From positions 1 to 64,000 of the forward strand of contig CALFVF010000006.1 of assembly GCA_937928735.1 (NCBI GenBank): 64,000 nt of DNA, written 5' to 3'. Positions 385 through 64,000 of the stretch are shown here, piece by piece. The notes under the pieces are model-generated. The model made no database searches, was not told the origin of the DNA, and saw nothing but the letters and a program-made list of their open reading frames with translations. Every line of letters starts with the position of its first letter. Position 1 is the stretch's first letter. The position numbers and the translations under genes were made by a program. The stretch comes from an uncultured Verrucomicrobiales bacterium. Its GTDB lineage: Bacteria; Verrucomicrobiota; Verrucomicrobiia; Verrucomicrobiales; Akkermansiaceae.

Positions 385-1737
385 ATGCGTGTACTGCTCT
401 TCCTTCCCTCAATAACCTTTGTTCTGTCTACAGTTCATGTCTATTCAGACCCTGTCTCAAGCTGGGTAGCAGTGAATGGTGACGCTAGCTTTACTGCTAA
501 CAGCCAAACAACAAACTCTCCGACAACCACTGACGCCAGAGCGGATACCATCATGGGGAGCTTCCCCGAGGTCACTCTGTCTATTGGCGACTCCGCTGAA
601 TTTTCTGGGTCTGTGACAATTCATGGTCCAGCGGGGGAGTTACCTTCAAATCAATTGCGCTGGGGGCTCTTTCATACACCGAACCCACCAGTGGGTGGTG
701 TGGGGAGCAACTATGTTGGCCTCTGGTCAGCAGTGTCACAAGGTGCCACGAGCCTCAGGCGAGCCAATGGCTCGACTTCAAATCCGTTTAACTCGAGTGC
801 TGCGACTAATATTATCTCTGCCTCCTCAGGGGCAGGGGCTGCTGAGTATAATGAGGCACTCACGTTTTCGATCCACGTGACTCGCATCAATGATGCTCAG
901 ATGAGAGCTTCTGCTAGTCTCACAGATGGGGATCAATTTCTTGTGCAATGGCCAGAGAGCGTGACCTCAGCGTCACCTGATAATTTTAGTTATAATTCGG
1001 CGGGATTCTTAATGGGAGGGACTCTGGATAATTCTGCTACTGCATCGATATCTAATGCGAATGTCGAGGTGACACGTTCAACGATTCCCGTGACGCCCAC
1101 CTTTGACCTAGAGACTCGATTGTTCGGCGTAGACTTTAATTCCTCCGAAGTCCCTGGTTCTCCGACATATTCGAGAGTTCGTGTTATTTCTGGGAGAGAA
1201 ACAACACCTTCACCTCTGACGAAACAAATTGGTGATGTCTCAATCACTGTGGCTACCAACGATGGTAGTGCATTCGAATTCCGCGGTGCTAATGGTGACT
1301 CTAGCCGTGTGATTCCAGGTGGAGATATTTCTCGCTCATTTCTCGTTTCTGACTTTATCGGTTCGCAAACTGCGTCAGTTCTAGTGACAATCGAAGGACT
1401 TGAGACAGGCACTTACACTTGGGCTTCTTATCATTTAGACAGCATTGTTGGAAATAGCTTAGGCTTTGCCAGTGGGACTTCAAACACATCAGCAAATAGG
1501 ATTGAGGCGAGTATCGATGGTGAATCTCAAGCTACCATTGTTCCTACTTCTTTAGGGTTACCGGGACTCAATACGACCTCGATTGCTGACTCTGACATTC
1601 CCACTTTAGCCTTCACATTCTCTCACGATAGCACTCAACCAACAACTATAGAGCTCTCAGGCACTCTAAGTAATGGCTCAAATCGCCATGTTTTCTTCAA
1701 TGGCTTTGAGATCTATCAAAACGCCGACACCCCATGA
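385..1737 (+). CDS. exported beta-rich protein of unknown function
   Basis: 450 residues with a signal peptide (residues 1-21, hydrophobic LLFLPSITFVLS, cleavage likely near VYS-D). The rest is Ser/Thr/Asn/Gly-rich with few charged residues and alternating hydrophobic positions, as in beta-sandwich cell-surface proteins. Two blocks are visible: residues about 25-245, similar in style to the tail of the broken PEP-CTERM gene upstream, and residues about 255-445, starting near LFGVDFNS. No PEP-CTERM or other sorting signal was found at its end, and no enzyme motif. Its stop overlaps the start of the sulfatase gene (ATGA at 1734-1737), so the two are translationally coupled and probably act in the same place, outside the cytoplasmic membrane. 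A binding or accessory role for sulfated polysaccharide is only a guess. Confidence 0.85.
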   Translation: MRVLLFLPSITFVLSTVHVYSDPVSSWVAVNGDASFTANSQTTNSPTTTDARADTIMGSFPEVTLSIGDSAEFSGSVTIHGPAGELPSNQLRWGLFHTPNPPVGGVGSNYVGLWSAVSQGATSLRRANGSTSNPFNSSAATNIISASSGAGAAEYNEALTFSIHVTRINDAQMRASASLTDGDQFLVQWPESVTSASPDNFSYNSAGFLMGGTLDNSATASISNANVEVTRSTIPVTPTFDLETRLFGVDFNSSEVPGSPTYSRVRVISGRETTPSPLTKQIGDVSITVATNDGSAFEFRGANGDSSRVIPGGDISRSFLVSDFIGSQTASVLVTIEGLETGTYTWASYHLDSIVGNSLGFASGTSNTSANRIEASIDGESQATIVPTSLGLPGLNTTSIADSDIPTLAFTFSHDSTQPTTIELSGTLSNGSNRHVFFNGFEIYQNADTP

Positions 1738-3572
1738 AACACTCTATTTTTACCCTCCTTGGCTTTATTGGCCTCACTGTATCATCAGCAGCAGCTCCCA
1801 ATGTCCTCTTTATTGCACTGGATGACTTGCGCCCAGAGCTTGGCAGCTATGGTGAAACGCATATGCAAACACCCCATATTGATGCTCTAGCTAATTCTGG
1901 TAGAGTGTTTAGAAATCATTATGTCTCTGTTCCTACGTGTGGAGCCTCTCGCTATGCACTTATGACGAGTCTACGCCCGACAGCTGCTAGTGATGGCAAT
2001 AATGCCTTTAATGCCATGCCTACCACGGAGACTGCGGCTCCTGAGAGCTGGGTGCATTTATTGAGACAGAACGGATGGTACACGGCTTCTATGGGGAAGG
2101 TGACTCATGAGCCAGATGGCTTCCGCTGGTCGTTTCCCAATAACTTCGATGATGGACGATTCCGCGGCAATAATGCAGAAATGCGATTTTCTTTTGATGA
2201 AATCATCTACGATCATAGTAGTTGGGGTGCTCGGCGCTACCCGCTCTTCGCCTATGCCGATGGGACAGGGCGAGTTAGGCGCAATACACCAGCCTTTGAA
2301 ATTGGCGTGGATGCCGATGGAAATTCACTTCCCGATGACGCCTATCCCGATGGTCAGTTAGCACTTGCAGCTATTGAGAAGCTTCGCGAGTTCAAGCAAG
2401 ACGGTACACAGTTCTGCCTCACGTTAGGTTTCTTTAAACCTCACCTTCCCTTTAATGCACCAAAGGCGTATTTTGATTTGTATGATCCTGCCGCATTACC
2501 AGCGCCAGATCCAGTTTCTGCACCTACGGGGGCCAATTCATCTACGGGTAACTCTGGAGAGCCGAACTCTTACACTCAGAATTCTGATCGCGCTCAGCTC
2601 CGCTATGCTTATGTGGCCTGTATCTCATACGTCGACGCTCAGGTTGGAAAGGTGCTCGACGAACTCGAAGCTCTTGGTATGGCGGATAATACCATTGTTG
2701 TTCTTTGGGGCGATCATGGATGGTGTTTTGATGATTATGGACGTATCGGGAAGCATTCGGTACTCGAGCGGGCTGTTCAGTCGCCATTGATTATTCGTGC
2801 CCCTGATAACAGCGCTAACCCTGAGGCTTTCCGTGGCCTTGGCACCAAAGGTATCGTTTCATCCATCGATATCTATCCCACTATAGCTGAGTTGTGCGGT
2901 CTTTCCTCACAGATTCCATCTTCTGTCGATGGTGAATCTCTCGTGCCGATGCTACAAAACCCATTCTCTCCAGGCAAATCACAAGCATTCTCGAGATTCG
3001 GTGATGTGACATCCATTCGCACAGATACTCACAGGTTGATTCGCTCAGGTGGTGGTGCCAATGACCTCTACGATTTAACGGCGCATCCCTACGAACTCGC
3101 AGATGTTTCTGCAAGCAATGGCCCATTGACAACACAGTTAGAAAACCGTCTGACAGTCAGAGGTACGAGACCAGGGAACACCTACGAAGACTGGGCACTG
3201 AATGTTCCAGAACTCGCCGACCCTTTGACGGATGCCGACTCTGATGGATCGAGTAATCTTTTAGAATACCTAGCGGGCACAGACCCTACAAATGACCAGT
3301 CGCTAGTGAACACGGAGTTGAGCTTCGAGGATCTAGGCGCAGGTAGCGAACCTGTTTTCACCTACCAGCTCTCTAACATAGCTAATGACGCTTCTTTAAT
3401 TCCAACTTCTTCCACAGACCTGTCTCAGTGGTTTAGTTCTTCACTACGGTTCTACGAAGCGAATCCCATTACTGGCAGTACTAATACCGAGCTGCGGTTT
3501 CGAGTTGCCACGCCTTCAGCAGCACCCTTAGGTCTGAGACGTTTCTTCCGTGTGGAAGCTAGTGATAATTAG
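1734..3572 (+). CDS. secreted sulfatase, iduronate-2-sulfatase-like
   Basis: 612 residues. Residues 1-21 form a signal peptide (LLGFIGLTVSSAAA). The alkaline-phosphatase-superfamily core starts at NVLFIALDDLRPELGSYG, whose DD pair binds calcium. The formylglycine signature is CGASR (within VPTCGASRYALMTS), so the Cys is expected to be converted to formylglycine by a maturase. WGDHGW (about residue 325) supplies further metal ligands. The LDDLRPELGSYG form is typical of iduronate-2-sulfatase-like enzymes that desulfate polysaccharides. After the catalytic core, a DADSDGSSNLLEYLAGTDP stretch (about residues 500-520) is the Ca-binding, thrombospondin-3-like tail common on verrucomicrobial secreted enzymes, followed by a beta-rich C-terminal domain. 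It overlaps the upstream exported protein by 4 bp. The substrate cannot be told from sequence. Confidence 0.93.
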   Translation: MKHSIFTLLGFIGLTVSSAAAPNVLFIALDDLRPELGSYGETHMQTPHIDALANSGRVFRNHYVSVPTCGASRYALMTSLRPTAASDGNNAFNAMPTTETAAPESWVHLLRQNGWYTASMGKVTHEPDGFRWSFPNNFDDGRFRGNNAEMRFSFDEIIYDHSSWGARRYPLFAYADGTGRVRRNTPAFEIGVDADGNSLPDDAYPDGQLALAAIEKLREFKQDGTQFCLTLGFFKPHLPFNAPKAYFDLYDPAALPAPDPVSAPTGANSSTGNSGEPNSYTQNSDRAQLRYAYVACISYVDAQVGKVLDELEALGMADNTIVVLWGDHGWCFDDYGRIGKHSVLERAVQSPLIIRAPDNSANPEAFRGLGTKGIVSSIDIYPTIAELCGLSSQIPSSVDGESLVPMLQNPFSPGKSQAFSRFGDVTSIRTDTHRLIRSGGGANDLYDLTAHPYELADVSASNGPLTTQLENRLTVRGTRPGNTYEDWALNVPELADPLTDADSDGSSNLLEYLAGTDPTNDQSLVNTELSFEDLGAGSEPVFTYQLSNIANDASLIPTSSTDLSQWFSSSLRFYEANPITGSTNTELRFRVATPSAAPLGLRRFFRVEASDN

Positions 3573-3633
3573 TACACAGTAGAGCCTCTTTGTTGGACTC
3601 CTTGGTCATCCCATTAGATCTGATTCTTGATCA

Positions 3634-4311
3634 TCAGGGGCTCAAGCGCTTGAGCTGCCACTGCTCTTCCTCAGTTTCTGATTCTGACTCAGCAGTTCGC
3701 TCGTAGCAGATACGATCATGGAGGCGGCTGGGACGCCCTTGCCAGAATTCGATGCTGCTAGGCTCGACACGATAGCCACCCCAGAAGTCGGGTAGGGGAA
3801 TCGTAGTGCCCTCGGGATATTCCTTGAGGAGCTCTTCCTCGCGATTGGCCAGCCATTCTCTGGAGGGGATTTCGTGGCTCTGTACCGAGGCAAGAGCTCC
3901 GATCTGGCTGCCATGCGGGCGCATATGGAAGTACGTCTCAGATTCCTCGTGAGTGGTTTTCTCCACGTGGCCTTTGATAATAATCTGGCGCTCTAACTCC
4001 TCCCAGGCAAAGACGAGGCAGGCGTAGGGATTCTGGGCGAGATCTTGCCCTTTCTGTGAGGTGTAGTTAGTGAAGAAACAAAAACCATGCTCATCGTAGT
4101 GTTTGAGTAATACTGTTCTTGCAGTTGGTACACCTGCTGCATTCGCAGTCGCCAACGTCATGGCATTGGGCTCGGCGATTCCTGAGTGAATGGCTTCATC
4201 GATCCAGAGCTTAAACTGCAGCATGGGGTCTGGACTCACTTCTTTGAGCTCTAGCCCTGCGCGTGTGTAGTTTTCTCTGAGATCTGCTAGAGTTGGTTTG
4301 GATAAAGACAT
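3634..4311 (-). CDS. pdxH: pyridoxamine 5'-phosphate oxidase
   Basis: 225 residues, the usual length. PdxH uses FMN and oxygen to oxidise pyridoxine or pyridoxamine 5'-phosphate to pyridoxal 5'-phosphate in the cytoplasm. FMN-binding segments are visible at about 65-90 (RTVLLK, FFTNYTSQKG), and the family signature lies at residues 186-200 (SSIEFWQGRPSRLHDR). The last ten residues (LKRLSP) match the normal PdxH end. The C-terminal part carries an unusual acidic run, ESESETEEE, between ICYER and the LKRLSP end. It is convergent with the sulfatase gene upstream in coordinates and stands alone, with the next minus-strand gene starting beyond 5.8 kb. Identification is firm. Confidence 0.96.
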   Translation of the reverse strand: MSLSKPTLADLRENYTRAGLELKEVSPDPMLQFKLWIDEAIHSGIAEPNAMTLATANAAGVPTARTVLLKHYDEHGFCFFTNYTSQKGQDLAQNPYACLVFAWEELERQIIIKGHVEKTTHEESETYFHMRPHGSQIGALASVQSHEIPSREWLANREEELLKEYPEGTTIPLPDFWGGYRVEPSSIEFWQGRPSRLHDRICYERTAESESETEEEQWQLKRLSP

Positions 4312-4393
4312 GGTTCGGATAGATGAAGGTTCGCGTTACAGAGAATGAGTGCGCTCTGTTCGGAGATTTCCGTTTTTAGAATGCTCACTCGGG

Positions 4394-5800
4394 CTATTTT
4401 GTCGGCTCTTTGGTGAAGAAATCACCTCCTAGAGCGAGGTGTAGATCAATGCGGTTCTGTATCCTGTTATTTTGGAGAATGATCAGTGAGGATCTCGCCA
4501 CGTTGGCTCTACGTTGAGATTCTAGCACAGAAATAATATCAATACCATCCACTCCTTCAGAGAAATCTTGCTCGGCCTGCTTTTCTGCTAAACTCGCTTG
4601 TTTGACTTCTGTATTAAGGTGAATGGCTTGATTTTTCAGAGATTCTTCCGCGTGAAGTGCGTCTTCGACCTCACGGTAGGCATCGAGGACAATTTGTCGG
4701 TAATCGAGAAGCACGGCTTCATTCAGTGCTAAGTTCGCGGCGATATCGGCTCTGAGAGTCCCACCACTAAAGACGTTTTGGGAGAGTGAGACGGCGATAT
4801 TAGCCACGAGATTCTGTGGGTCTAGGAGTTCACGCAGGCGCTCTTGGTTACTTGAGCTACTGCCTGTGAGGTTAATGGAGGGCAGAAGGGATTTCTGGGC
4901 GGCATCCGCTAGTTTAGCGGCGGCATAGATATCATGGCGTGCCGCGGCGATGTCTGGGCGCCTCGCTAGTAGCTGGGCGGGGAGTCCTGCCGGGACGCTG
5001 CTCTTCATCACAGGGAGAGCGGGCATCGCTTTGAGCTGATTGGAAGGGTAGCGGCCTAACAAGACCTCGAGGTCTCTGGCGGCTTCTCCGCGATTTAATT
5101 TACTCTGCTCGAGCACACTCTCCGCAGACGCGACATTAGTACGGCTTAGCTGTACGGCGAGGGCTGGTGTGCCTGGAATCCCTGCTTGGTAGTTTCTCTC
5201 GATGATATTGAGGTTTTTTTGAAAGCCATCTACAGTTCTCTGGGCGAGCTGGAGCTGTTGCTCAGAGGTGATGAGGTTGGACCAGGCTCTCGCGGTATTT
5301 GCTGCTAGTGAGAGTCGAGCCCCTCGGTAGTCTTGTATGGCAGCGCCTAAGTTATGGCGAGAGGCATCATTGAGGTCTCTGAGGCGTCCCCAGAGGTCTG
5401 GTTCCCACGAGGCATTCAGGCTGAGGTTGAGATTTGTTGAGAAGTCAGCGGAGTCATCTCCTGCTAAATTTACGGCGCGAGAACCGCCCAGACTACTACG
5501 AATCGAGGGGAGCAGTGCAGCGCGTGTGCCTATAGTACCACGCTGGGCGGCGCGCAGACGTGCAGCAGCAGCACCGATAGCTGGATTATTATCAAGAGCT
5601 TCGACCACGAGGCGCTTCATCACGGCATCATCAAACTCATCGAGCCAGCCTGCTGAGATCTTGCCGTGATTGCGCTCTGAGGCCTGCACCCAGCTGCTAG
5701 GTGGCCTGAGTGTCTGCTGGGTGCGGCTTTTTGTTTGGACAAATTGAGCGCAGCCACTGAGGACAAGTACAGGAAGGAGGCGAGTTAAGGTGTGTCTCAT
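4394..5800 (-). CDS. RND efflux outer-membrane lipoprotein, NodT/OprM family
   Basis: 468 residues. A lipoprotein signal peptide ends in the lipobox LSGC (Cys17), followed by a typical outer-membrane-factor start (RPPSSW, then GWLDEFDDAVMKRLVVEALDNNPAIGAAAARLRAAQ). The duplicated long-helix repeat of TolC-type channels is visible, including LPSIRSSLGGS and later LPSINLTGSSSS, the ARRPDIAAA motif of the NodT subgroup, and VFSGGTLRADI. Such trimeric channels carry substrates across the outer membrane for an RND pump and its adaptor. Neither partner gene lies next to it here. It follows the DinB-like gene by 15 bp and may be co-transcribed with it. Confidence 0.92.
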   Translation of the reverse strand: MRHTLTRLLPVLVLSGCAQFVQTKSRTQQTLRPPSSWVQASERNHGKISAGWLDEFDDAVMKRLVVEALDNNPAIGAAAARLRAAQRGTIGTRAALLPSIRSSLGGSRAVNLAGDDSADFSTNLNLSLNASWEPDLWGRLRDLNDASRHNLGAAIQDYRGARLSLAANTARAWSNLITSEQQLQLAQRTVDGFQKNLNIIERNYQAGIPGTPALAVQLSRTNVASAESVLEQSKLNRGEAARDLEVLLGRYPSNQLKAMPALPVMKSSVPAGLPAQLLARRPDIAAARHDIYAAAKLADAAQKSLLPSINLTGSSSSNQERLRELLDPQNLVANIAVSLSQNVFSGGTLRADIAANLALNEAVLLDYRQIVLDAYREVEDALHAEESLKNQAIHLNTEVKQASLAEKQAEQDFSEGVDGIDIISVLESQRRANVARSSLIILQNNRIQNRIDLHLALGGDFFTKEPTK

Positions 5801-7889: not shown

Positions 7890-9197
7890 CTAGCGCCGAC
7901 TCAGCGGGAAGCGCAGAGTCAGAGTCGGCTCTAGCTCTTGGGTTGGTGCTAAGTAGCCTAGTGGTGAGGTTTCTCTGGCCGTGACCTGTGACTCAAGATC
8001 TGAGCCGATCGACCAGAGCAATCTCTCCGTTTCTGCATAGCCGAAGTTCTTACCAGTGTAGACCTCTCGTGGGAGCTCACTGAGGTAAGTCGGGGTGAGA
8101 GTTTCTAAGGTCTTAGGTAGCTTTCGATGCTGGAAATGGTAGCGCCTGAGGGCACAGTAGAGCTGAGTCATTCTGCGGTGAGTCTCTATGTGATCGAGGT
8201 CTCGCTCGAAGTACTGAGGAGTGTCCACGAAGTCCTTCAGCAAGGTCTCTCCTAGGTGATTAAGCGTGAGTAATTTGGGAGAATCTGCCTGAGGTGCCTC
8301 GCGCTGATTAGTCGGTACTGGGAGTTGAGAGAGGCGATTCTGGGTGGCTTTGAGAAACTCAGATGCTGTGAGATGAGGTTTCAGCGCGATTTGGCTGCGT
8401 AGCTTTGTCTTCGTACTGAGAGTCTCCGTGTTCAAAGCTCCTTCTTGAGCCTGTGCCTCACCTTTGTCTTTCTCAGCGAGCTGATAGACTCTTTGAATAC
8501 TCTTCGCTGTATGGTCTTTGAGTAAATTGCTGAAAATAGTGGAATTCTCACTTGGCTTCTCTAGTAAACTTGCGATCTGCTTGAGCTCTGATTCCTTAAG
8601 AGCTCTATCTTTAATAAACAAGTAACTAAGCTGGTAAAACATCTGCTGAGTCTGCAGCGCCAGACGCCATGAGGAGGACTCACTAACACCTTGGCTAAAA
8701 ATCTCAGTCATCGTGTGCACTGTCAAAAAATGCCGAAGCGCCACATCCGACTCATCGGCAAGTAAGTAAGCGATGACTCTGAGATGCAGAAGCTGAGCAA
8801 TAGGGGTAAGGGCTTGGTAGAGATCCAGCGAATCTGTGCCACAAAGGTGCGAATCCGCTAAGAGCAAGCTGTCTAGCTCCTCCAAGTTCTGGCGATTTGA
8901 GCTGATAATAGTAAGAAGAGCCTCGGGATCGACATTATGAGGGTCATAGAAAGCACTATGCAGTTGATCCTCGATATCATCGGGAAGAGTGATCACACGG
9001 GCAATTTCCAAGAAGGTCTTGAGGTGATTAATCTCACCCTCAGGCACGCCGAATTCTACCTGCAGAGGAGCTAGATCAGGAGCCTCACTATCCGCCCAGA
9101 TCGCCGTTTTTTTTGAAGCTGGTTCCTCAGCAACCACGCTTCCTACAAAAGACTCCAGGAGAAAACAAAGTGTAATGAGGTGGAAGCGACTAGCCAT
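7890..9197 (-). CDS. exported protein of unknown function
   Basis: 435 residues with a signal peptide (residues 1-23, LITLCFLLESFVGSVVA, then EEPAS). The mature part is rich in Leu, Glu and Gln and predicted mostly helical, with stretches such as LYQALTPIAQLLHLRVIAYLLA, ending in a beta-type tail (LEPTLTLRFPLSRR). A segment near residues 345-400 (LYCALRRYHFQHRKLPKTLETLTPTYL then YTGKNFGYA) resembles a motif seen in many planctomycete/verrucomicrobial exported proteins near pseudopilin-like or hypothetical genes, but I cannot name a family. It is a single gene, divergent from the TerC gene. Confidence 0.8.
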   Translation of the reverse strand: MASRFHLITLCFLLESFVGSVVAEEPASKKTAIWADSEAPDLAPLQVEFGVPEGEINHLKTFLEIARVITLPDDIEDQLHSAFYDPHNVDPEALLTIISSNRQNLEELDSLLLADSHLCGTDSLDLYQALTPIAQLLHLRVIAYLLADESDVALRHFLTVHTMTEIFSQGVSESSSWRLALQTQQMFYQLSYLFIKDRALKESELKQIASLLEKPSENSTIFSNLLKDHTAKSIQRVYQLAEKDKGEAQAQEGALNTETLSTKTKLRSQIALKPHLTASEFLKATQNRLSQLPVPTNQREAPQADSPKLLTLNHLGETLLKDFVDTPQYFERDLDHIETHRRMTQLYCALRRYHFQHRKLPKTLETLTPTYLSELPREVYTGKNFGYAETERLLWSIGSDLESQVTARETSPLGYLAPTQELEPTLTLRFPLSRR

Positions 9198-10226: not shown

Positions 10227-11369
10227 TTATCGCGGAAACCAAACACGAGCAGTAAACAAATTCCCGTCTCGATCTTCTTCGAAGTCTATAGTTGAGTATG
10301 AAGCCAAAGCCCGACGAATACCACTTCCAATCCCTCGATATGGAAGTATGCGGGTGGCAAATGAAGCCAAAATAGGATTCCGCATATTCGAATTTCCTCT
10401 CTTAATGTTTTCTATTGTGAGGTTGTTAGGTAAATGTCCGGGACTGATGATTTCTATACGATCCGAGAAAATGAATAATCTGACAGGAGCTGAAATGAAG
10501 TAGTCTCGATGAATGAAAGCATTCGCCAAAAGCTCTTCGAAAACAATATCTGGGATCTCAGGTTTTCCTATGGAATTAATAGTCTTACTACCCTGAGTCT
10601 TTTTCAGATTTCGCTTAATAAATGCCAGCGATTTTTCGAAGAGCGTCCCTAAATCGCCACCTAAATCTTCGCTGTCATCATAAACATTACTAACGATTGA
10701 ATCTTCTGGAAAAGCCACAGCCTTAACTATGAAACTTGGTAGTAGAAACTGAGGGCGAGAAGAGAAGAGTAGAACCCCTGCAACGTTAAGCATATTATCC
10801 CGCATAAGGTTCATATTTGTCAGGAGCTGGGGTGCTCCTACAGTCTCAAGCTCTTCGTTGTATTGGCTTCGCACAAATTCACTAAAGAGCTTCAAATCGA
10901 GATCAGAAACGCTACTGGTAGGAACGGGAACTTCGTCACCATGAATGAGCTTCGAGGCTTGAAACATTCTCTGCATTTCTTCCGGCGCGGTTACCTTCCG
11001 CTTATCCGATCCAGATTTTACGACAATGGTGCCCTTGTGAGTGTAAGGCTTCCTCATTCCGTCAGCCACCTTCACTAACAATACAAGTCCCTCAGGAAGC
11101 TCGAGGCTTTCGGTAGTAACAAGAGCTGGTGGACTTACGCTTTGTGAAGCAGTATTTGATACTAGCTGATTGAGACGGTCGACGTCTAAACTACTCAGCC
11201 CCGCGACTGCGCCATCGTTTGAAACTCCAATCACGATTAGTCCACCTCCACTGTTGCAGAATGCCACCATTTCCTCCGCCATGGAGTCCTGGTTCGTCAT
11301 GTTTCTTTTAAACTGACAATGTGAGGTCTCTCCCTTCGCTATAGTAGAAATCAGTTCGCTTATCTCCAT
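10227..11369 (-). CDS. Schlafen/AlbA_2 ATP-binding protein (partner of the PHP-ATPase)
   Basis: 380 residues. An AlbA_2 (Schlafen AAA_4-like) domain lies at about residues 10-130: GETSHCQFKRN, AFCNSGGGLIVIGVSNDG and a PYTHKG strand. A C-terminal region resembles the HATPase_c_4 module of the same family: EELLANAFIHRDYF (about 265), FSDRIEIISPGHLP, GIGSGIRRAL. Proteins of this build are called putative transcriptional regulators, but they also occur in phage-defence and toxin contexts. Its ATG overlaps the 3' end of the PHP-ATPase gene by 10 bp, so the two are translationally coupled. The pair sits alone between core genes (terC-like and nagZ), which points to acquisition by transfer. The fold call is firm and the role is unknown. 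Confidence 0.9.
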   Translation of the reverse strand: MEISELISTIAKGETSHCQFKRNMTNQDSMAEEMVAFCNSGGGLIVIGVSNDGAVAGLSSLDVDRLNQLVSNTASQSVSPPALVTTESLELPEGLVLLVKVADGMRKPYTHKGTIVVKSGSDKRKVTAPEEMQRMFQASKLIHGDEVPVPTSSVSDLDLKLFSEFVRSQYNEELETVGAPQLLTNMNLMRDNMLNVAGVLLFSSRPQFLLPSFIVKAVAFPEDSIVSNVYDDSEDLGGDLGTLFEKSLAFIKRNLKKTQGSKTINSIGKPEIPDIVFEELLANAFIHRDYFISAPVRLFIFSDRIEIISPGHLPNNLTIENIKRGNSNMRNPILASFATRILPYRGIGSGIRRALASYSTIDFEEDRDGNLFTARVWFPR

Positions 11370-14038
11370 AACTCGTAGATTTGTTTGCGGCGGTCAAAGG
11401 CGTCACGCCCACCTTCCATAATATTCACGATATGAGTTTGAATAGCAGGAGTGTCTATACCTCCCCAAACTACTTGGACACGGTCTTCAGAGCACTCAAA
11501 AGCGTGCACGAGTTCAGCATCGCCCAGAACTGGGAAATTTGCGTTATGAGTTGCAAAAATGAACTGGGTTGATGACTTCATGCGTCGAATCAATTTAATG
11601 ACGTCTTCGTAGATTGTCTGATTATCCAGATCATCTTCCGGCTGATCAACGATGACAACGTTGTTATCATGTTGACTCAACACAAATAAGATAAGTGCCG
11701 AAGCTCGTTGTCCCAACGAATGCTGAAGAAGAGGTTTTCCCTTGTAGGTAATCTCTATAAGATTGGGAACTTGGTATGAGAGGAGGTTCCTTAAGTTCCT
11801 TTGAAAGTATTCCTCAAACACTTGAGATGAACCACTGACGTGAGCAAGAACGGCATCCCAATTCTTGTAAATAGCTGCAAAATCAGGATATTCGTCTACT
11901 AGAGCTTTCAAGGTGTTCTCACGAATACGACTCCCCTTGTAGAGGGACTGAAAATATTTAAGAAACGCTTCTTTATCTCCTTTAAATACACCTTTAATTT
12001 GAAGTGCTTTTTGACTCTCATTAACGCTCTGTAGCGTTTGTTCAATGAGCTTGAATTCTTCTCTCCATAATTCGTTGAGCGAGCTAAGTTCAGCTAATAA
12101 ACAACTTTGAGCTTCTGCTCGCTTGTCTTGGTTCTTGGATAGAGCAGCGATGAGCTTTTCAGTATTCGCAACAATTTTGGCAAGCTGCGGGAATTGATCC
12201 AAATTGAGAGCCGATTGGCCTTTTTCTTTTAATTGTTCCTGTAGTTCCCGACGAGTTTCAGAGAACTCAGCCTTAGAAGCCTGCTTCAACTGGTCAAACT
12301 CCTGCTGCTTGGCTTTCAAAGCTTCATAACTGCTCCGGGTTTGCTTAAGGGCAGCGTTTAGTTGATTGAGACTGTCGACAATTGGCTGATGCAATTGGAA
12401 GTAGGATTCAAAAAAACCAGGATTTTCCTTCGAAGAATAATCGGTCAAATTTCGTAACTCGTCTTCGTATTCAGCTAGGATCTCCCTTATAGATGTGCCG
12501 TATTGCTTGATCAGGTCTTGAGAGGATTTAATCTTTCTTTCGTCAGCATCAAAATGTGTCTGACGCTTAAGTTTTTCCGCAACTCCTAACTCGGTGAAAA
12601 TTTTAATCTGATGTTCGGCATCCTGTTTTTTCTCTTTAGCCTCTTTGATTTCTTCGTCGATATTCGAAAGCTTCTGAACGAGCTCGAGCGCCTCGATTAC
12701 TTTCATCTTCTGGGCAGCGATTTCACGACGTTTGTGTTCGATTTTTTCGCCCACCAGCTTTTCTACTAGATCTGACTCAAATCCCTCGCCCTTCGCCGAA
12801 AGATCCTTTTGTCCAAAATAAACGGGAAGATGCACAACTGTCTCTCGGATCGAGAGACCAGGTTGAAGTTCCCCATGCTCGTTATATACTTCGGGGTTGT
12901 CACCAACCACTCGACAAACTTCGTAATGTTTGCCGAATCTGTCTGTCACTTTTAAAGTGACTTTGCCGCCGCTACCGAGCAGATGCTCGATAAGACCGTT
13001 CTTGTAGGGGGAGTCTTCTTTGGCTTCGAAGCCTAGCGCGAATCGGATAGCCTCGATGACGGACGATTTACCACTTCCTCGAATGCCGATTAAGCTATTG
13101 AACTCAGAGGAAAGGGGTAGACATTTTCCGTCTAGCATACCCCCATCAAAACTTACCGATGAAATACGTGAATGTTTAAATGGCTCCTTTTCCTCAAGGG
13201 TCACCCTAGCCAGTGGATCACTGAGGGCAAATTTCACCGCGTTGTAGGAAGATTCTCCGATCTTCAAGAAACACTTTTTACCCTTTCCTATCTCTTCGAT
13301 GGATTTGCAGTCACTTCCTTCGACTTCGGCAGGATACCACCCCTTGAGCAGATCCCTGACTTTTTTTCGGCATAAACGATCTGAGTATTCACTGTTAGCT
13401 GAGTCAAAAGTTCGAACCTTCTGAAAGGCGAGTAAGCGAGCCCGAACAGCTGAATAACGATCAGTCGTTAAGTCGCCAATTTTTCCGCCACCAAACTCGT
13501 ACCATAATCCGCTTTTTTGTTCAACGTGAGCAAAGATTAAAAAGTAATCTCGTCCCATTTTGTCTAGTTCCTCTACGACAGACAGAATATTTTTATCACT
13601 ACGTCCGTCTTCGTGTTGGTATTCTTCTACAGATCTCCCCGGAAACATTCCTGAAATCGCAGGATTTATATAGTCTTTTCCATCGGCAATCCACTCCTCG
13701 GAAAAGATCACCAAAACATGAACGCCATTGCTTCCATCGTTCACCGATAGCTCCACTCCCGGAAGAAGGTAAGAGCCTAGTTTTCTCGCACGTTTCCGCA
13801 GGTTTATAAATTCCTCTCTAACGAATTTATTGTGGTTTGTTACTGCTCCGATTTTGATTCCAGCGTCCGCTAACTTTTCTGCGTAAGTTTTCAGATATTC
13901 ATCGTCTTTCCCAGAATATTGGAACTGTTTATCTGCTCTTGTGTGTAAATGGAAATCAACTCGTACCCAGCAAGAACCAGACTCAAAATTGTGTTGTAGA
14001 GGTAATTGAGGCATTGGTTCTGAAAACATGGTCAACAT
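11360..14038 (-). CDS. PHP-domain plus SMC-like ATPase, TrlF type
   Basis: 892 residues. An N-terminal PHP phosphoesterase-like domain lies at about residues 24-240: metal motif HLH at 30-32, TNHNKF at 68-72, PGVELSV at 93-99 and IFAHVE at 168-173. An ABC/SMC-type ATPase head is split around coiled coil: Walker A GIRGSGKSS at about 318-326, long Glu/Lys/Gln-rich helices at about 425-680, and Walker B VVIVDQPEDDLDN at about 794-806 followed by the ATHNANFP H-loop segment. This order is that of TrlF-like ATPases. A PHP nuclease or phosphatase gated by an ATPase clamp is the natural reading. It is cotranscribed with the AlbA_2 gene (10-bp overlap, this gene first). Its AT-rich codon use differs from the neighbouring nagZ gene. 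Confidence 0.9.
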   Translation of the reverse strand: MLTMFSEPMPQLPLQHNFESGSCWVRVDFHLHTRADKQFQYSGKDDEYLKTYAEKLADAGIKIGAVTNHNKFVREEFINLRKRARKLGSYLLPGVELSVNDGSNGVHVLVIFSEEWIADGKDYINPAISGMFPGRSVEEYQHEDGRSDKNILSVVEELDKMGRDYFLIFAHVEQKSGLWYEFGGGKIGDLTTDRYSAVRARLLAFQKVRTFDSANSEYSDRLCRKKVRDLLKGWYPAEVEGSDCKSIEEIGKGKKCFLKIGESSYNAVKFALSDPLARVTLEEKEPFKHSRISSVSFDGGMLDGKCLPLSSEFNSLIGIRGSGKSSVIEAIRFALGFEAKEDSPYKNGLIEHLLGSGGKVTLKVTDRFGKHYEVCRVVGDNPEVYNEHGELQPGLSIRETVVHLPVYFGQKDLSAKGEGFESDLVEKLVGEKIEHKRREIAAQKMKVIEALELVQKLSNIDEEIKEAKEKKQDAEHQIKIFTELGVAEKLKRQTHFDADERKIKSSQDLIKQYGTSIREILAEYEDELRNLTDYSSKENPGFFESYFQLHQPIVDSLNQLNAALKQTRSSYEALKAKQQEFDQLKQASKAEFSETRRELQEQLKEKGQSALNLDQFPQLAKIVANTEKLIAALSKNQDKRAEAQSCLLAELSSLNELWREEFKLIEQTLQSVNESQKALQIKGVFKGDKEAFLKYFQSLYKGSRIRENTLKALVDEYPDFAAIYKNWDAVLAHVSGSSQVFEEYFQRNLRNLLSYQVPNLIEITYKGKPLLQHSLGQRASALILFVLSQHDNNVVIVDQPEDDLDNQTIYEDVIKLIRRMKSSTQFIFATHNANFPVLGDAELVHAFECSEDRVQVVWGGIDTPAIQTHIVNIMEGGRDAFDRRKQIYELWR

Positions 14039-39452: not shown

Positions 39453-39472
39453 AGGGTTCTTTTTGGAGAATA

Positions 39473-39633
39473 AGGGCACTTCTGAAAACCTGCTTTTGGT
39501 ATAAAATGTAGCCAGATTGTTTCATATCAAGGCAAACACAATCACTTTTGAATGCATTCATAAGGATTGTGGACAACGCAGAGATGGAGCAATCTGGTGG
39601 TATTTTCAAAAATGAGGTTTTTAGAGGTGCCCT
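39473..39633. repeat. MITE-like repeat, copy A
   Basis: About 160 bp with imperfect terminal inverted repeats: left AGGGCACTTCTGAAAACCTG, right (reverse complement) AGGGCACCTCTAAAAACCTC. No coding potential that makes sense. The internal sequence matches copy B (61155-61316) in opposite orientation, with long shared blocks (for example CTCCATCTCTGCGTTGTCC). TAA flanks the GGGCAC ends on both sides, suggesting a short target-site duplication. Lies in the hisS to ABM-gene gap. Non-autonomous: no transposase in this window. Confidence 0.72.
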
Positions 39634-39679
39634 AAAGAAACGCACTTGAAGTTTATGCCAGCTATGCGTTTGTGGTGCT

Positions 39680-60981: not shown

Positions 60982-61458
60982 AACTACCATATTAAGAAAA
61001 TACAACATACGAAGTCAAGGCAGTGGGTTAAGCTTCTTAAGTAATTCTCATGAAAACTTTCTTTGTCTCTGCCTCTATTTACCAACCGTTTTAGCCTTAG
61101 ATTAAAGGGCCGAGAAATACTGGTTTGAATCCAAGGATACAAAGCGAAGTATTAAGGACACCTCTGGAAACCTCATTTCTGAAAACGCCATCAGATTCCT
61201 CCATCTCTGCGTTGTCCACGATCCTTTATAATTCATTCATAAGAAATCACGTTTGCCTTGATCTGAAAAAACCTGAAGGCCTTTTTAAATCAAAAACAGG
61301 TTACAGGAGGTGCCCTTAAAAGAGTTCAGTAACCTAACATCTCTTAATTGAGCAGTTTTTGCATTTCTCTGAACTTCACACTTTTTCTTTCACCCTGATA
61401 GTTCATACTATCTTGTAGAGTCTTTCAAACAAGTTAGCTCAACGCCCACTTCACCTAC
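60982..61458. other. gene-free border before the restriction/SIR2 block
   Basis: About 475 bp with no supported gene. It holds MITE copy B at 61155-61316 and AT-rich flanks with T-runs. The coding style changes sharply at its right end (GC-rich, GAG/CTC/AAG-heavy codons in the HsdM-like gene), which marks the edge of the accessory block. Confidence 0.6.
61155..61316. repeat. MITE-like repeat, copy B
   Basis: About 160 bp, terminal inverted repeats AGGACACCTCTGGAAACCT and (reverse complement of the right end) AGGGCACCTCCTGTAACCTG, in opposite orientation to copy A. The element is flanked by TTAA on the left and TTAA on the right, consistent with a short target duplication. Lies directly between the chromosomal NIPSNAP gene and the accessory restriction/SIR2 block. 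Confidence 0.7.
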
Positions 61459-61794
61459 ATGCCCGCCAAAAAGAAGACGACCGCCCGAAAGGCTACCAAA
61501 AAGCCCTCAAAATCCTTCGAGGAAACCCTCTGGGACACTGCCAACAAACTCCGCGGCTCCGTCGAGTCATCGGAATACAAGCACGTCGTCCTCTCGCTGA
61601 TCTTCCTCAAGTTCGTCTCCGACAAGTTCGAGGAGCGCCGGGCCGAGCTCGTGGCCTTGGAGGATGATGGCATTCCCTTTGAGGCCAAGATGACCGAGCT
61701 GAGTCAGACGCTCTACGCGCAGATGGACGAGGCCAAAGCCCTAGATCAAACCATCACCGAGAACCTCAAATCCCTAGGCTATGGCAGAAAGTAA
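61459..61794 (+). CDS. internally deleted HsdM-like protein (type I methyltransferase remnant)
   Basis: 111 residues where HsdM is about 500. Residues 1-65 are a normal HsdM N-terminus (KKTTARKATKK lead, LWDTANKLRGSVESSEYKHV, LSLIFLKFVSDKFEERRAEL). Residues about 70-111 are a normal HsdM C-terminus (DDGIPFEAKMTELSQTL, MDEAKALDQTITENLKSLGYG). The SAM-binding and catalytic core (NPPY motif and the rest) is missing with the frame kept. The product cannot methylate DNA. GC-rich relative to its neighbours, so horizontally acquired. The chimeric gene follows after about 60 bp. Confidence 0.82.
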   Translation: MPAKKKTTARKATKKPSKSFEETLWDTANKLRGSVESSEYKHVVLSLIFLKFVSDKFEERRAELVALEDDGIPFEAKMTELSQTLYAQMDEAKALDQTITENLKSLGYGRK

Positions 61795-61853: not shown

Positions 61854-62708
61854 ATGACTGATAACCGTCATTTTCTAGGCCGCTCAAAGAAGGATCTTGG
61901 CGCGCCAGTTCCTCCGCCCAAGAATGTGCTACCAACCGACTACGGGGACTTCCTTCAATCGGTCAAAACTCACATAGCGGGAGAGCGGCTCAAAGCGATT
62001 CTATCGGCTAATACCGCCCTCATTCTCCTCTACTGGGACCTTGGGAATCTCATTCTCGCCAAGCAAGACGCAGAACAGTGGGGCAGCAAAGTCATTGACC
62101 GGCTCTCACATGACCTCAAAGAGGCGTTCCCGGAAATGTCAGGATTTTCGCCCAGAAACCTCAAATATATGAGGAAGTTTGCAGGCGCTTGGCCGGATCG
62201 GGCTATTGTGCAACGCACCATTGCACAAATCCCATGGAGCTCGAACCTCTTGCTATTAGAGAAACTTCAAAATCCAGAAACCAGACTTTTCTACGCTGAG
62301 AAAACGCACGCACATAGGTGGAGTAAGGTGGTCTTGGCTCATCAAATCAGTGCCGGTCTTCATGAACGAGAAGGCAAGCTGACCAACAACTTCGGCGTAG
62401 CACTCCCACCAAAAGGCTCCGATCTCGCTGTTCAGAAAAAAGTATCGGAAATGATGACTTGGGCATCAGGTAGCGCTCGTTCATTTTTTAGGAAGGGCGA
62501 TTTTAAGACCCATGAAATATTGGCCCCCTCAGAAAACTTGCTGAAGGCTTTCGAAGATCAAGTAATCCCGATGTTTCTTGGGATCTCCAACAATTCATCA
62601 GAATCCGAAACCCTAGTAAAACTTCGCGACACCCTCCTCCCAAAATTCATCTCCGACGCACTCCGACTTGCAGAAACTGAACAACTACCTAAGGAGGCGC
62701 TGGCATGA
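61854..62708 (+). CDS. DUF1016-N/HsdS-C chimeric protein
   Basis: 284 residues. Residues about 25-190 match the DUF1016/YhcG N-terminal domain (ILLYWDLGNLILAKQD, WGSKVIDRLSHDLKEAFPEMSGFSPRNLKYMRKFA, AQIPWSSNLLLLEKL, HQISAGLHEREGKLTNNF). The PDDEXK nuclease half that normally follows is absent. Instead residues about 200-270 look like the end of a type I specificity subunit (ASGSARSFFRKGDFKTHEIL, PSENLLKAFEDQVIPMF, ESETLVKLRDTLLPKFIS). The junction is near residues 190-203, in frame. The stop overlaps the SIR2 start (ATGA). Confidence 0.8.
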   Translation: MTDNRHFLGRSKKDLGAPVPPPKNVLPTDYGDFLQSVKTHIAGERLKAILSANTALILLYWDLGNLILAKQDAEQWGSKVIDRLSHDLKEAFPEMSGFSPRNLKYMRKFAGAWPDRAIVQRTIAQIPWSSNLLLLEKLQNPETRLFYAEKTHAHRWSKVVLAHQISAGLHEREGKLTNNFGVALPPKGSDLAVQKKVSEMMTWASGSARSFFRKGDFKTHEILAPSENLLKAFEDQVIPMFLGISNNSSESETLVKLRDTLLPKFISDALRLAETEQLPKEALA

Positions 62709-63745
62709 GCTTTACTCTTCCGGAAATGCTACCAGGAATCGAAACTGGCTTAAACAGCGTGGGATTTCTCTTTGGTGCAGGAACTTCGAAGGGGGCTGGG
62801 TATCCCTTAATGGGCGATCTAACCAAAGACGTCGTTGCTAAACTCAGCGCTGAAGACCGAGGCACTCTTGAATCTATTTTAGCCCTGAGCGGACTGCAAT
62901 ATGACGAGAGTGAAGGGTCACCGAATATTGAGATCTTAGGAGATCTCGTTATCGAAGCCTCAGTTAACGCTCCCAAAGCTGAGCACAACCAACTCTCCTC
63001 GGAGATTCAGCGACTCATCACCGAGATCATACTGTCCGTAGAGAACCCAAATTTAGAAGGCCACGTTAATTTCCTAGACGCCCTGAAGAAAAGAAGTTCA
63101 GGCAGCTCAACTAAGGTTACAATTTTTACCACCAATTACGATATCCTATTTGAACTGGCTGCAGGCGAGGTCGGAGTCAGAATGGAAACGGGTTTTGACG
63201 GCAGTCTCAAACGCACATTCTCACCTGATGCATTTGGTCTTTCGAGAGGCAGCCTCTCGGCGGGCAGATTCTTAATCAAAAATGAACTGCACATCAATTT
63301 GGTTAAGCTTCACGGTTCGATCGCGTGGATGAAGCAAGATGAAACTCTCCACGAAACAGGCATCGACTTGGCAAATCTGACGCATAATCGGGCCATCATT
63401 CTTCCCCGCCGGAGGAAAGTTATGGATACCCTGGCACATCCATTCGACCAACTATTTACGAAAGCATCCCGCATTCTCGGCAATGAATGTAAGTATTTAG
63501 TGAGCTGCGGTTTCAGTTACGGCGACAAGCATATCAACGACGAGCTGCTGATACCGAAACTACGTGAAGGTAAGATCAGACTTACAGCGCTATGCGGTGC
63601 AGAGCCAGAAACGCTAAGCGAATTAACGCCCTTCCCATCATTTCAAATAGGGCTCCCAGACCGCTGCGAGTCCAACCTCTATTCAAAAACTGAGGGGACT
63701 GAATTCTGGAAATTCGACGCCCTTGCAGAACTATTAGCTCCCTAA
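62705..63745 (+). CDS. SIR2-like NADase (SIR2-HerA defence type)
   Basis: 346 residues. Sirtuin-like NAD fold: GAGTSKGAG at residues 24-32, FTTNYDILFE with the catalytic-site Asn at 144, KLHGSIAWMK with His203 (catalytic base position) and SCGFSYGDKHIND (about 268-280). The zinc site of deacetylase sirtuins is absent, as in defence-type SIR2 proteins that break down NAD when triggered by phage. Its ATG overlaps the stop of the chimeric gene, and the next gene begins 7 bp after its stop with a HerA-like N-terminus. Translational coupling on both sides suggests one unit. Confidence 0.9.
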   Translation: MSFTLPEMLPGIETGLNSVGFLFGAGTSKGAGYPLMGDLTKDVVAKLSAEDRGTLESILALSGLQYDESEGSPNIEILGDLVIEASVNAPKAEHNQLSSEIQRLITEIILSVENPNLEGHVNFLDALKKRSSGSSTKVTIFTTNYDILFELAAGEVGVRMETGFDGSLKRTFSPDAFGLSRGSLSAGRFLIKNELHINLVKLHGSIAWMKQDETLHETGIDLANLTHNRAIILPRRRKVMDTLAHPFDQLFTKASRILGNECKYLVSCGFSYGDKHINDELLIPKLREGKIRLTALCGAEPETLSELTPFPSFQIGLPDRCESNLYSKTEGTEFWKFDALAELLAP

Positions 63746-63752
63746 ATCAACG

Positions 63753-64000
63753 ATGTCAGAACAATACAAAATAGGCCGCATAACTGGCGTCTTGGCAGAC
63801 CGGCTCACAATTTCCCTTGATGATCATATTTCGGAAGACGGGGTAGATTCTGGAGTCCCAGAGAATATGACAGTGAACCTACCTGGGGAAGCTGGGCCTA
63901 CCCCGTTGCTCATCGGGCAGCCAGGAACCTTTGTCGCCGTATCGATCCCTTCGGGACAGCTCCTCGCGATGATTACTGGGATCGACATGAAAGAGACCAC
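63753..64000 (+). CDS. HerA-like ATPase, N-terminal part (runs off the window)
   Basis: The frame is open from ATG 63753 to the right edge (83 codons, no stop). The translation is a HAS-barrel-like N-terminus: YKIGRITGVLADRLTISLDD, GVPENMTVNLPGE, IGQPGTFVAVSIPSGQLLAMITGIDMKET. This is the known start of HerA/DUF87 translocase-type ATPases, which form the partner of SIR2 in SIR2-HerA defence. The Walker motifs would lie outside this window, so the assignment rests on the N-terminus and position (7 bp after the SIR2 stop). Confidence 0.75.
   Translation, partial: MSEQYKIGRITGVLADRLTISLDDHISEDGVDSGVPENMTVNLPGEAGPTPLLIGQPGTFVAVSIPSGQLLAMITGIDMKET

Follow-up and report, generated by a model that had tools for sequence, protein, structure and literature searches.

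The 284-residue open reading frame (ORF) on the forward strand at positions 61854–62708 raises the question of whether it encodes a new recognition or adaptor protein of a SIR2–HerA unit or is what a longer operon has left behind. A sequence-only reading of the window (the whole 64,000-nucleotide stretch analysed here) had favoured the former, describing the ORF as the front of a DUF1016/YhcG protein joined to the tail of a type I specificity subunit (HsdS), beside a similarly shortened HsdM. The features of the locus are collected in Table 1.

Table 1. Features of the locus, in window coordinates.
Feature	Positions	Strand	Evidence
Mini-HsdM, 111 aa: first ~66 hsdM codons joined in frame to the hsdM tail, without methyltransferase domain	61459..61794	+	Pfam; comparison with L155 hsdM
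GGCC at the hsdM deletion joint, common to both flanks (6 of 7 letters in 61650–61656)	61653..61656	+	Both ends of L155 hsdM
Last 46 nt of mini-HsdM, resembling partial hsdM-tail copies between hsdM and DUF1016 of L154 and L158	61750..61795	+	93.5% (L154) and 84.8% (L158) identity
DUF1016_N part of the chimera, residues 1–194	61854..62435	+	Pfam; PADLOC PDC-S02; tblastn end at residue 194
Chimera joint: stretch fitting both the DUF1016 and hsdS sides in the same frame, at most 14 nt	62422..62435	+	Comparison with L098 hsdS and the DUF1016 match end
HsdS C-terminal end of the chimera; stop codon overlaps SIR2	62422..62708	+	L098 hsdS DNA identity; PADLOC Specificity_I
AAGGAGG, likely SIR2 ribosome-binding site inside the retained hsdS end	62691..62697	+	Sequence; GAGGAGG at the matching place in L154, absent in L097
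SIR2 gene, 346 aa, complete	62705..63745	+	Pfam SIR2_2; PADLOC SIR2 PDLC04081 1–344/345, E = 3e-138; motifs
HerA gene start, 572 aa; gene runs on to contig position 65471, beyond the window	63753..63998	+	PADLOC HerA PDLC04105, E = 4e-169; Pfam DUF87; Walker motifs

A DUF1016–HsdS chimera beside a shortened HsdM

The ORF begins with a DUF1016 N-terminal domain, which gives way in frame, at about residue 190, to the C-terminus of a type I specificity subunit. DUF1016_N of Pfam matched residues 37–172 (profile positions 2–137 of 137, E = 7e-41) and the PADLOC model PDC-S02 (DUF1016) matched residues 25–194 (E = 7e-66), which bears out the earlier assignment of the first ~190 residues. YhcG_C, the PDDEXK nuclease half, gave no match at E 1 in Pfam, and residues 197–278 matched positions 360–441 of the 446-position Specificity_I profile of PADLOC, that is, the end of HsdS (E = 1e-18). 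The proposed replacement of the nuclease half by an HsdS tail is thereby confirmed, and the C-terminal third is not the normal DUF1016 continuation. The chimera thus belongs to the YhcG/DUF1016 family over residues 25–194 and differs from it in carrying an HsdS end where the C-terminal nuclease half would be. It resembles HsdS over residues 197–278 and lacks the rest, including the parts described by Methylase_S (no match at E 1 in Pfam) and the two target-recognition domains; only the last part of the Specificity_I profiles was matched in PADLOC. A new protein family was considered and rejected: each half matches a known family, with a sharp boundary between the two.

The AlphaFold model is confident for DUF1016_N only, with a mean pLDDT of 88–97 per block over residues 21–170. 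The HsdS part reached a pLDDT of 35–63, which is weak evidence about the tail because the alignment was poor there and gave it in effect one helper sequence (three HsdS rows, from L016, L010 and L134, were placed against the wrong part of alignment A1). Foldseek found no match in the PDB at E 0.001, and a phmmer search of the PDB with the chimera returned nothing meaningful (three matches, E 0.29 or worse).

The joint was located by comparison with relatives. The hsdS gene of locus L098, from the same-genus genome G008, is 82% identical in DNA to window positions 62422–62686 (265 bp). This identity begins, in register, at 62422, and the DUF1016 similarity runs to residue 194 (62435); matches of the best 80 of 250 relatives end at residue 202 or earlier, mostly at exactly 194. 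The joint is therefore placed between these two positions, at the start of the range of about 62,420–62,470 given by the sequence-only reading. Neither the direct DUF1016 parent nor the direct hsdS parent of the chimera was found, so that the 14 nt shared by the two sides are an upper bound.

The same fusion was sought in other genomes and did not turn up among the matches listed. It was absent as a recurrent architecture from the best 80 of 250 loci. Among 387 genomes of the phylum, 58 including its own matched the chimera at E 1e-20, none of the 57 others extended past residue 200, and the matches listed contained no DUF1016–HsdS fusion. A search of 260 genomes of the family for the 32 bases at 62427–62458, with up to three mismatches, returned the locus itself only; this segment is mostly hsdS, so the search tests for a near-identical hsdS end and not for the fusion. 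The exact 34-base joint did not occur in viral contigs, none of 25 plasmid records covered 80% of the query, and none of the open-licence PubMed Central papers listed by the literature searches showed a DUF1016–HsdS fusion.

The neighbouring mini-HsdM does have the in-frame internal deletion that had been claimed for it: an HsdM_N front and an HsdM tail with the middle missing. Its front matches only positions 2–55 of the 135-position HsdM_N profile of Pfam and its second half matches HsdM C-termini, and the N6_Mtase catalytic domain, present in the HsdM of L016 and L097, is absent from its 111 residues (Pfam). The closest hsdM is that of L155 (genome G050, of the same order and another family), which is 95.7% identical in DNA over 61496–61656 (161 nt) at the front end and 93.9% identical over 61650–61731 (82 nt) at the back end. 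The 1,245 nt of L155 hsdM that are absent in between amount to 415 codons, in frame. The front differs from L155 at seven positions, five of them synonymous and two in one codon (Thr to Ser or the reverse), and the back at five, three of them at third codon positions and the other two at first and second positions. The likeness of the last 46 nt to the hsdM-tail copies of L154 and L158 suggests that the DUF1016 gene arrived as a cassette.

This second fusion, too, was not seen elsewhere among the matches listed. Mini-HsdM was matched at E 1e-6 in 109 of 386 genomes of the order, and among the matches listed only its own was continuous over residues 1–111. Weak matches past residue 66 (22–43% identity) lay mostly in long HsdM frames, and short-frame ones were found, again among the matches listed, on contigs C108 of G600, C73 of G668 and C66 of G457; the G600 region (L151) gave no hit with the locus query set.

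The SIR2–HerA pair and its translation start

Both genes downstream of the chimera are full length. SIR2 retains the GAGTS, TTNYD and KLHGS motifs, in which the N and the H would be the catalytic residues, and HerA retains GQTGGGKS and DEAH (Walker motifs). Among solved structures, SIR2 best matched chain A of 8j4u, a SIR2-like domain-containing protein (E = 6e-17), and HerA best matched 8ziq, a HerA (E = 1e-91). According to PMC11559045, the SIR2–HerA system Nezha depletes NAD+, loses immunity upon active-site mutation and needs HerA against several phages; the same paper gives the N and H of the Nezha NADase motifs as catalytic. The window pair shares with Nezha the adjacency of SIR2 and HerA, full-length family matches, and the NADase and Walker motifs; it differs in its position, closing what is probably a gutted type I operon. 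By analogy, we infer that it acts by NAD+ depletion like Nezha.

HerA relatives were present at E 1e-20 in 19 of the 387 genomes including its own, and their surroundings were examined in 9 of the 18 others. At L134 (G159) the order is hsdS, SIR2, HerA, a DUF4062/HATPase gene and hsdR. At L136 (G104) the pair comes after what look like type III res and mod genes, named by reading and not by profile; at L138 (G033) a shortened RhuM (Pfam RhuM positions 3–134 of 252) lies just before a complete SIR2–HerA. In G055 and G194 the pair has a DUF1016 gene next to it or no more than about 2 kb away; in G229 such a gene lies about 6 kb upstream. G024 and G198 gave no further hit beside SIR2–HerA with the query set, and G386 had no SIR2 hit near its HerA relative, only a short hsdR-like hit. 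Among 57 other relatives searched, SIR2 matches at E 0.001 occurred in three (25–31% identity).

The SIR2 gene was rightly described as overlapped with the chimera: the two share 4 nt (ATGA) at the chimera stop. The cargo gene that follows hsdS in L154 has the same stop/start overlap, with GAGGAGG in the same place inside hsdS. In L097 the overlap is present and an AAGGAGG-like motif absent. Since both the start of SIR2 and its likely ribosome-binding site lie within the hsdS end, this end may have been retained because SIR2 starts from it, without any function as protein.

An undeleted relative, the hsdR start and the probable origin of the fusions

Locus L016, from a Deltaproteobacteria bacterium, carries in order hsdM, a DUF1016 gene with its nuclease domain (YhcG_C, E = 3e-64), hsdS, SIR2, HerA, a DUF6978 gene, two ORFs and, at the locus end, the start of hsdR. 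It is a distant relative of the window locus, with SIR2 27% (over 164 aa) and HerA 35% identical, the HsdM ends 54% and 62%, DUF1016_N 58% and the HsdS tail 37%. The two HerA proteins share their best-fitting PADLOC model, and the two SIR2 proteins do not. At the window locus, by comparison, hsdM, hsdS and hsdR are present as fragments only, which does not make a functional type I operon.

The hsdR fragment lies directly after HerA, at contig positions 65480–65535. Two partial hsdR-start copies in L098 resemble this piece, one at 93% identity over 56 nt and the other at 87.5%; the piece comprises the first ~20 codons, reads MKFTEAQLESAIIELL, and then diverges, and a tRNA-Tyr gene follows at contig positions 65609–65694. 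Three HsdR proteins detected nothing else in the window or the contig continuation L003 at E 1e-3, and no full hsdR. Since relatives carry partial hsdR-start copies at their cargo borders, the fragment may itself mark a cassette border and need not descend from a full hsdR that was deleted.

Eroded restriction genes also occur in relatives. G008 (L100), G031 (L149) and, twice, G639 (L150) contain short stubs of hsdM in which a similar peptide is inserted after residue ~38. In G005 (L097), hsdS is broken up by stops in all reading frames. Damage to hsd genes is thus not rare in this group.

We consider it probable (roughly 0.78) that the locus is a type I operon carrying SIR2–HerA that was gutted by short-homology deletions, leaving SIR2–HerA as the working module. 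The ancestral order would have been hsdM, DUF1016, hsdS, SIR2, HerA, hsdR. Comparison with relatives shows an hsdM without its middle, a chimera without the front of hsdS or the nuclease half of DUF1016, no more than a start of hsdR, and complete SIR2 and HerA genes. The deletions would have come about through recombination between short repeats or slippage at them. The locus would no longer restrict or modify DNA, SIR2–HerA alone would be the working system, depleting NAD+ as in Nezha, and mini-HsdM and the chimera would have no recognition role. Any importance of the leftover reading frames would be confined to translation into SIR2, by way of ATGA and the likely ribosome-binding site.

This reading is the simpler one because L016 has the undeleted order, only the start of hsdR is left, other broken hsdM and RhuM genes exist and the fusions were unseen elsewhere. 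Short homology at both joints (GGCC; at most 14 nt) and the presence of SIR2–HerA between hsdS and hsdR in L134 argue for it as well, as do the match of each ORF to two separate parts of intact genes, the full-length SIR2–HerA, the position of such a pair behind a type III mod-like gene in L136 and the L154 cargo start that overlaps its hsdS stop. Against it stand the two ORFs, still open, the two in-frame joints and a DUF1016_N domain without visible decay; moreover, L016 is distant and the hsdR start is possibly a cassette-border copy. If the reading is correct, the locus is a natural deletion map of a composite defence operon in which restriction, modification and the DUF1016 nuclease were lost while SIR2–HerA and its translation start stayed whole, suggesting that the pair can work without its carrier operon. 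It would also caution that a fusion ORF in a defence island may be the scar of a deletion, so that a comparison with an undeleted relative should precede any claim of a new protein.

The new fused recognition or adaptor protein of the sequence-only reading is not supported, in view of the undeleted order in L016, the lone hsdR start and the failure to see the fusions among the matches listed. In its fuller form, mini-HsdM and the chimera would be repurposed into a small complex that senses or recruits DNA for SIR2–HerA. Both fusions are indeed in frame and open, the conserved residues of DUF1016_N are mostly intact in a domain predicted with high confidence, and the pieces kept are the ends of HsdM and HsdS. 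However, L139 and L140 carry SIR2–HerA without such neighbours (within the query set), the HsdS part has a pLDDT of 35–63 under a poor alignment and no Methylase_S match, the fusions are absent among listed matches in other genomes, and the hsdR start together with the other stubs points to general erosion. We regard such an adaptor as very unlikely. There is an equally slim chance, if anything slimmer, that the two proteins form a minimal, catalytically dead complex made of methyltransferase ends that gates or recruits SIR2–HerA; a restriction enzyme would then have been turned into the sensor of an NADase system.

Retention of the two short ORFs could be explained without any protein function if they were selected as regulatory leaders that set SIR2–HerA expression by translational coupling. 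This is a stronger form of the gutted-operon explanation and compatible with it. The ATGA overlap and the AAGGAGG inside the retained hsdS end, the same layout before the cargo of L154, the same stop/start overlap in L097 and the in-frame joints all fit such leaders, but related operons share the layout, so that its retention may be passive, and L097 lacks the AAGGAGG-like motif. We hold this as a tentative possibility. That the joints are instead misassemblies or chimeric reads, and the real genome has intact genes, is very unlikely, about as unlikely as the dead complex. The genome is a draft (40 contigs, 93.9% complete), and a dispersed repeat with three copies at contig ends lies upstream of the locus; yet that repeat, at about 61146–61326, is away from the joints, the homology at the joints, 4 nt at one and at most 14 nt at the other, seems to us too short for merging by an assembler, a search of the genome found a single further DUF1016_N match, which belongs to another type I operon, and three separate relics would require three errors.

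Decay and selection were also compared in the retained parts. The chimera breaks 2 of 48 conserved DUF1016_N columns; 98 other sequences break a median of 1, and 30 of the 98 break at least 2. Loci entered this test through their similarity to the chimera, which is itself included when the columns are counted; of 109 loci, 11 were left out because they were incompletely covered or contained a stop. Differences of the HsdS tail from L098 are distributed 10/9/29 over codon positions 1/2/3, a divergence that may predate the deletion. Both results are compatible with recent deletions as well as with continued constraint. That both joints are in frame, expected about 1 in 9 times by chance, is weak evidence for selection.

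Cargo, fragments and repeats in related type I operons

Defence genes within type I operons have already been published. TgvAB is embedded in a type I cluster of Vibrio cholerae (PMC11411939), and DarTG2 lies between hsdS and hsdR at a site that the authors call a potential recombination hotspot (PMC12255303). Like both, the window has defence cargo within a type I operon, in this case immediately following the hsdS end; unlike them, it combines a complete cargo with mere pieces of the host restriction genes. No gutted type I operon with an intact SIR2–HerA was seen among the open-licence PubMed Central papers listed by the literature searches.

In five of seven related type I operons (L097, L098, L154, L155 and L158, and not L156 or L157), protein searches found a partial hsdR 5′ end upstream of another hsdR start, with cargo between them. 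Both hsdR copies are partial in L098, where the contig ends, and L156 has only hsdR-start pieces of 29 and 27 nt at the DNA level. Partial hsdM-tail copies lie before DUF1016 in L154 and L158 and after RhuM in L097. Cargo may thus be swapped as cassettes bounded by gene fragments. L098 (positions 1163–4624) has Septu-like PtuA and PtuB followed by a TIR-domain gene between hsdS and a partial hsdR start, and L097 (4543–8168) has AbiJ-like, PDC-S19 and SoFic-like genes between hsdS and hsdR. In L150 (5263–5930), two broken 5′ stubs of hsdM stand in tandem, separated by about 200 bp; an hsdR-like gene and an hsdM-like gene lie downstream.

By ORF reading, restriction genes of L097 (G005) also carry in-frame inserted peptides that appear to be repeat-encoded (526–4527, 8368–9075 and 10837–12510), GSNGAPAPL-like in hsdR and hsdM and a related one in hsdS. 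L097 contains repeats of 72–78 bp, and the peptide inserted after hsdM residue ~38 in L149, L150 and L100 is a different one.

The locus is flanked by genes that we take to be rapA-like and rsmI-like. Of 10 other same-genus genomes that have both, nine carry them on different contigs; in G005 they are about 64 kb apart, and an hsd operon adjoins the rapA-like gene. The window's own genome has a second type I operon on contig C27 (L004, 1216–10583), complete-looking by ORF reading, with RhuM, an ATPase-like gene and a 350-aa DUF1016 gene. The dispersed repeat of ~165 bp occurs in the window at about 61146–61326 and at 39471–39636, and on contig C6 at 75145–75305; at least 24 further matches in the genome (with 25 of 47 candidates scored) span 58–174 bp at 72–91% identity, three of them at contig starts.
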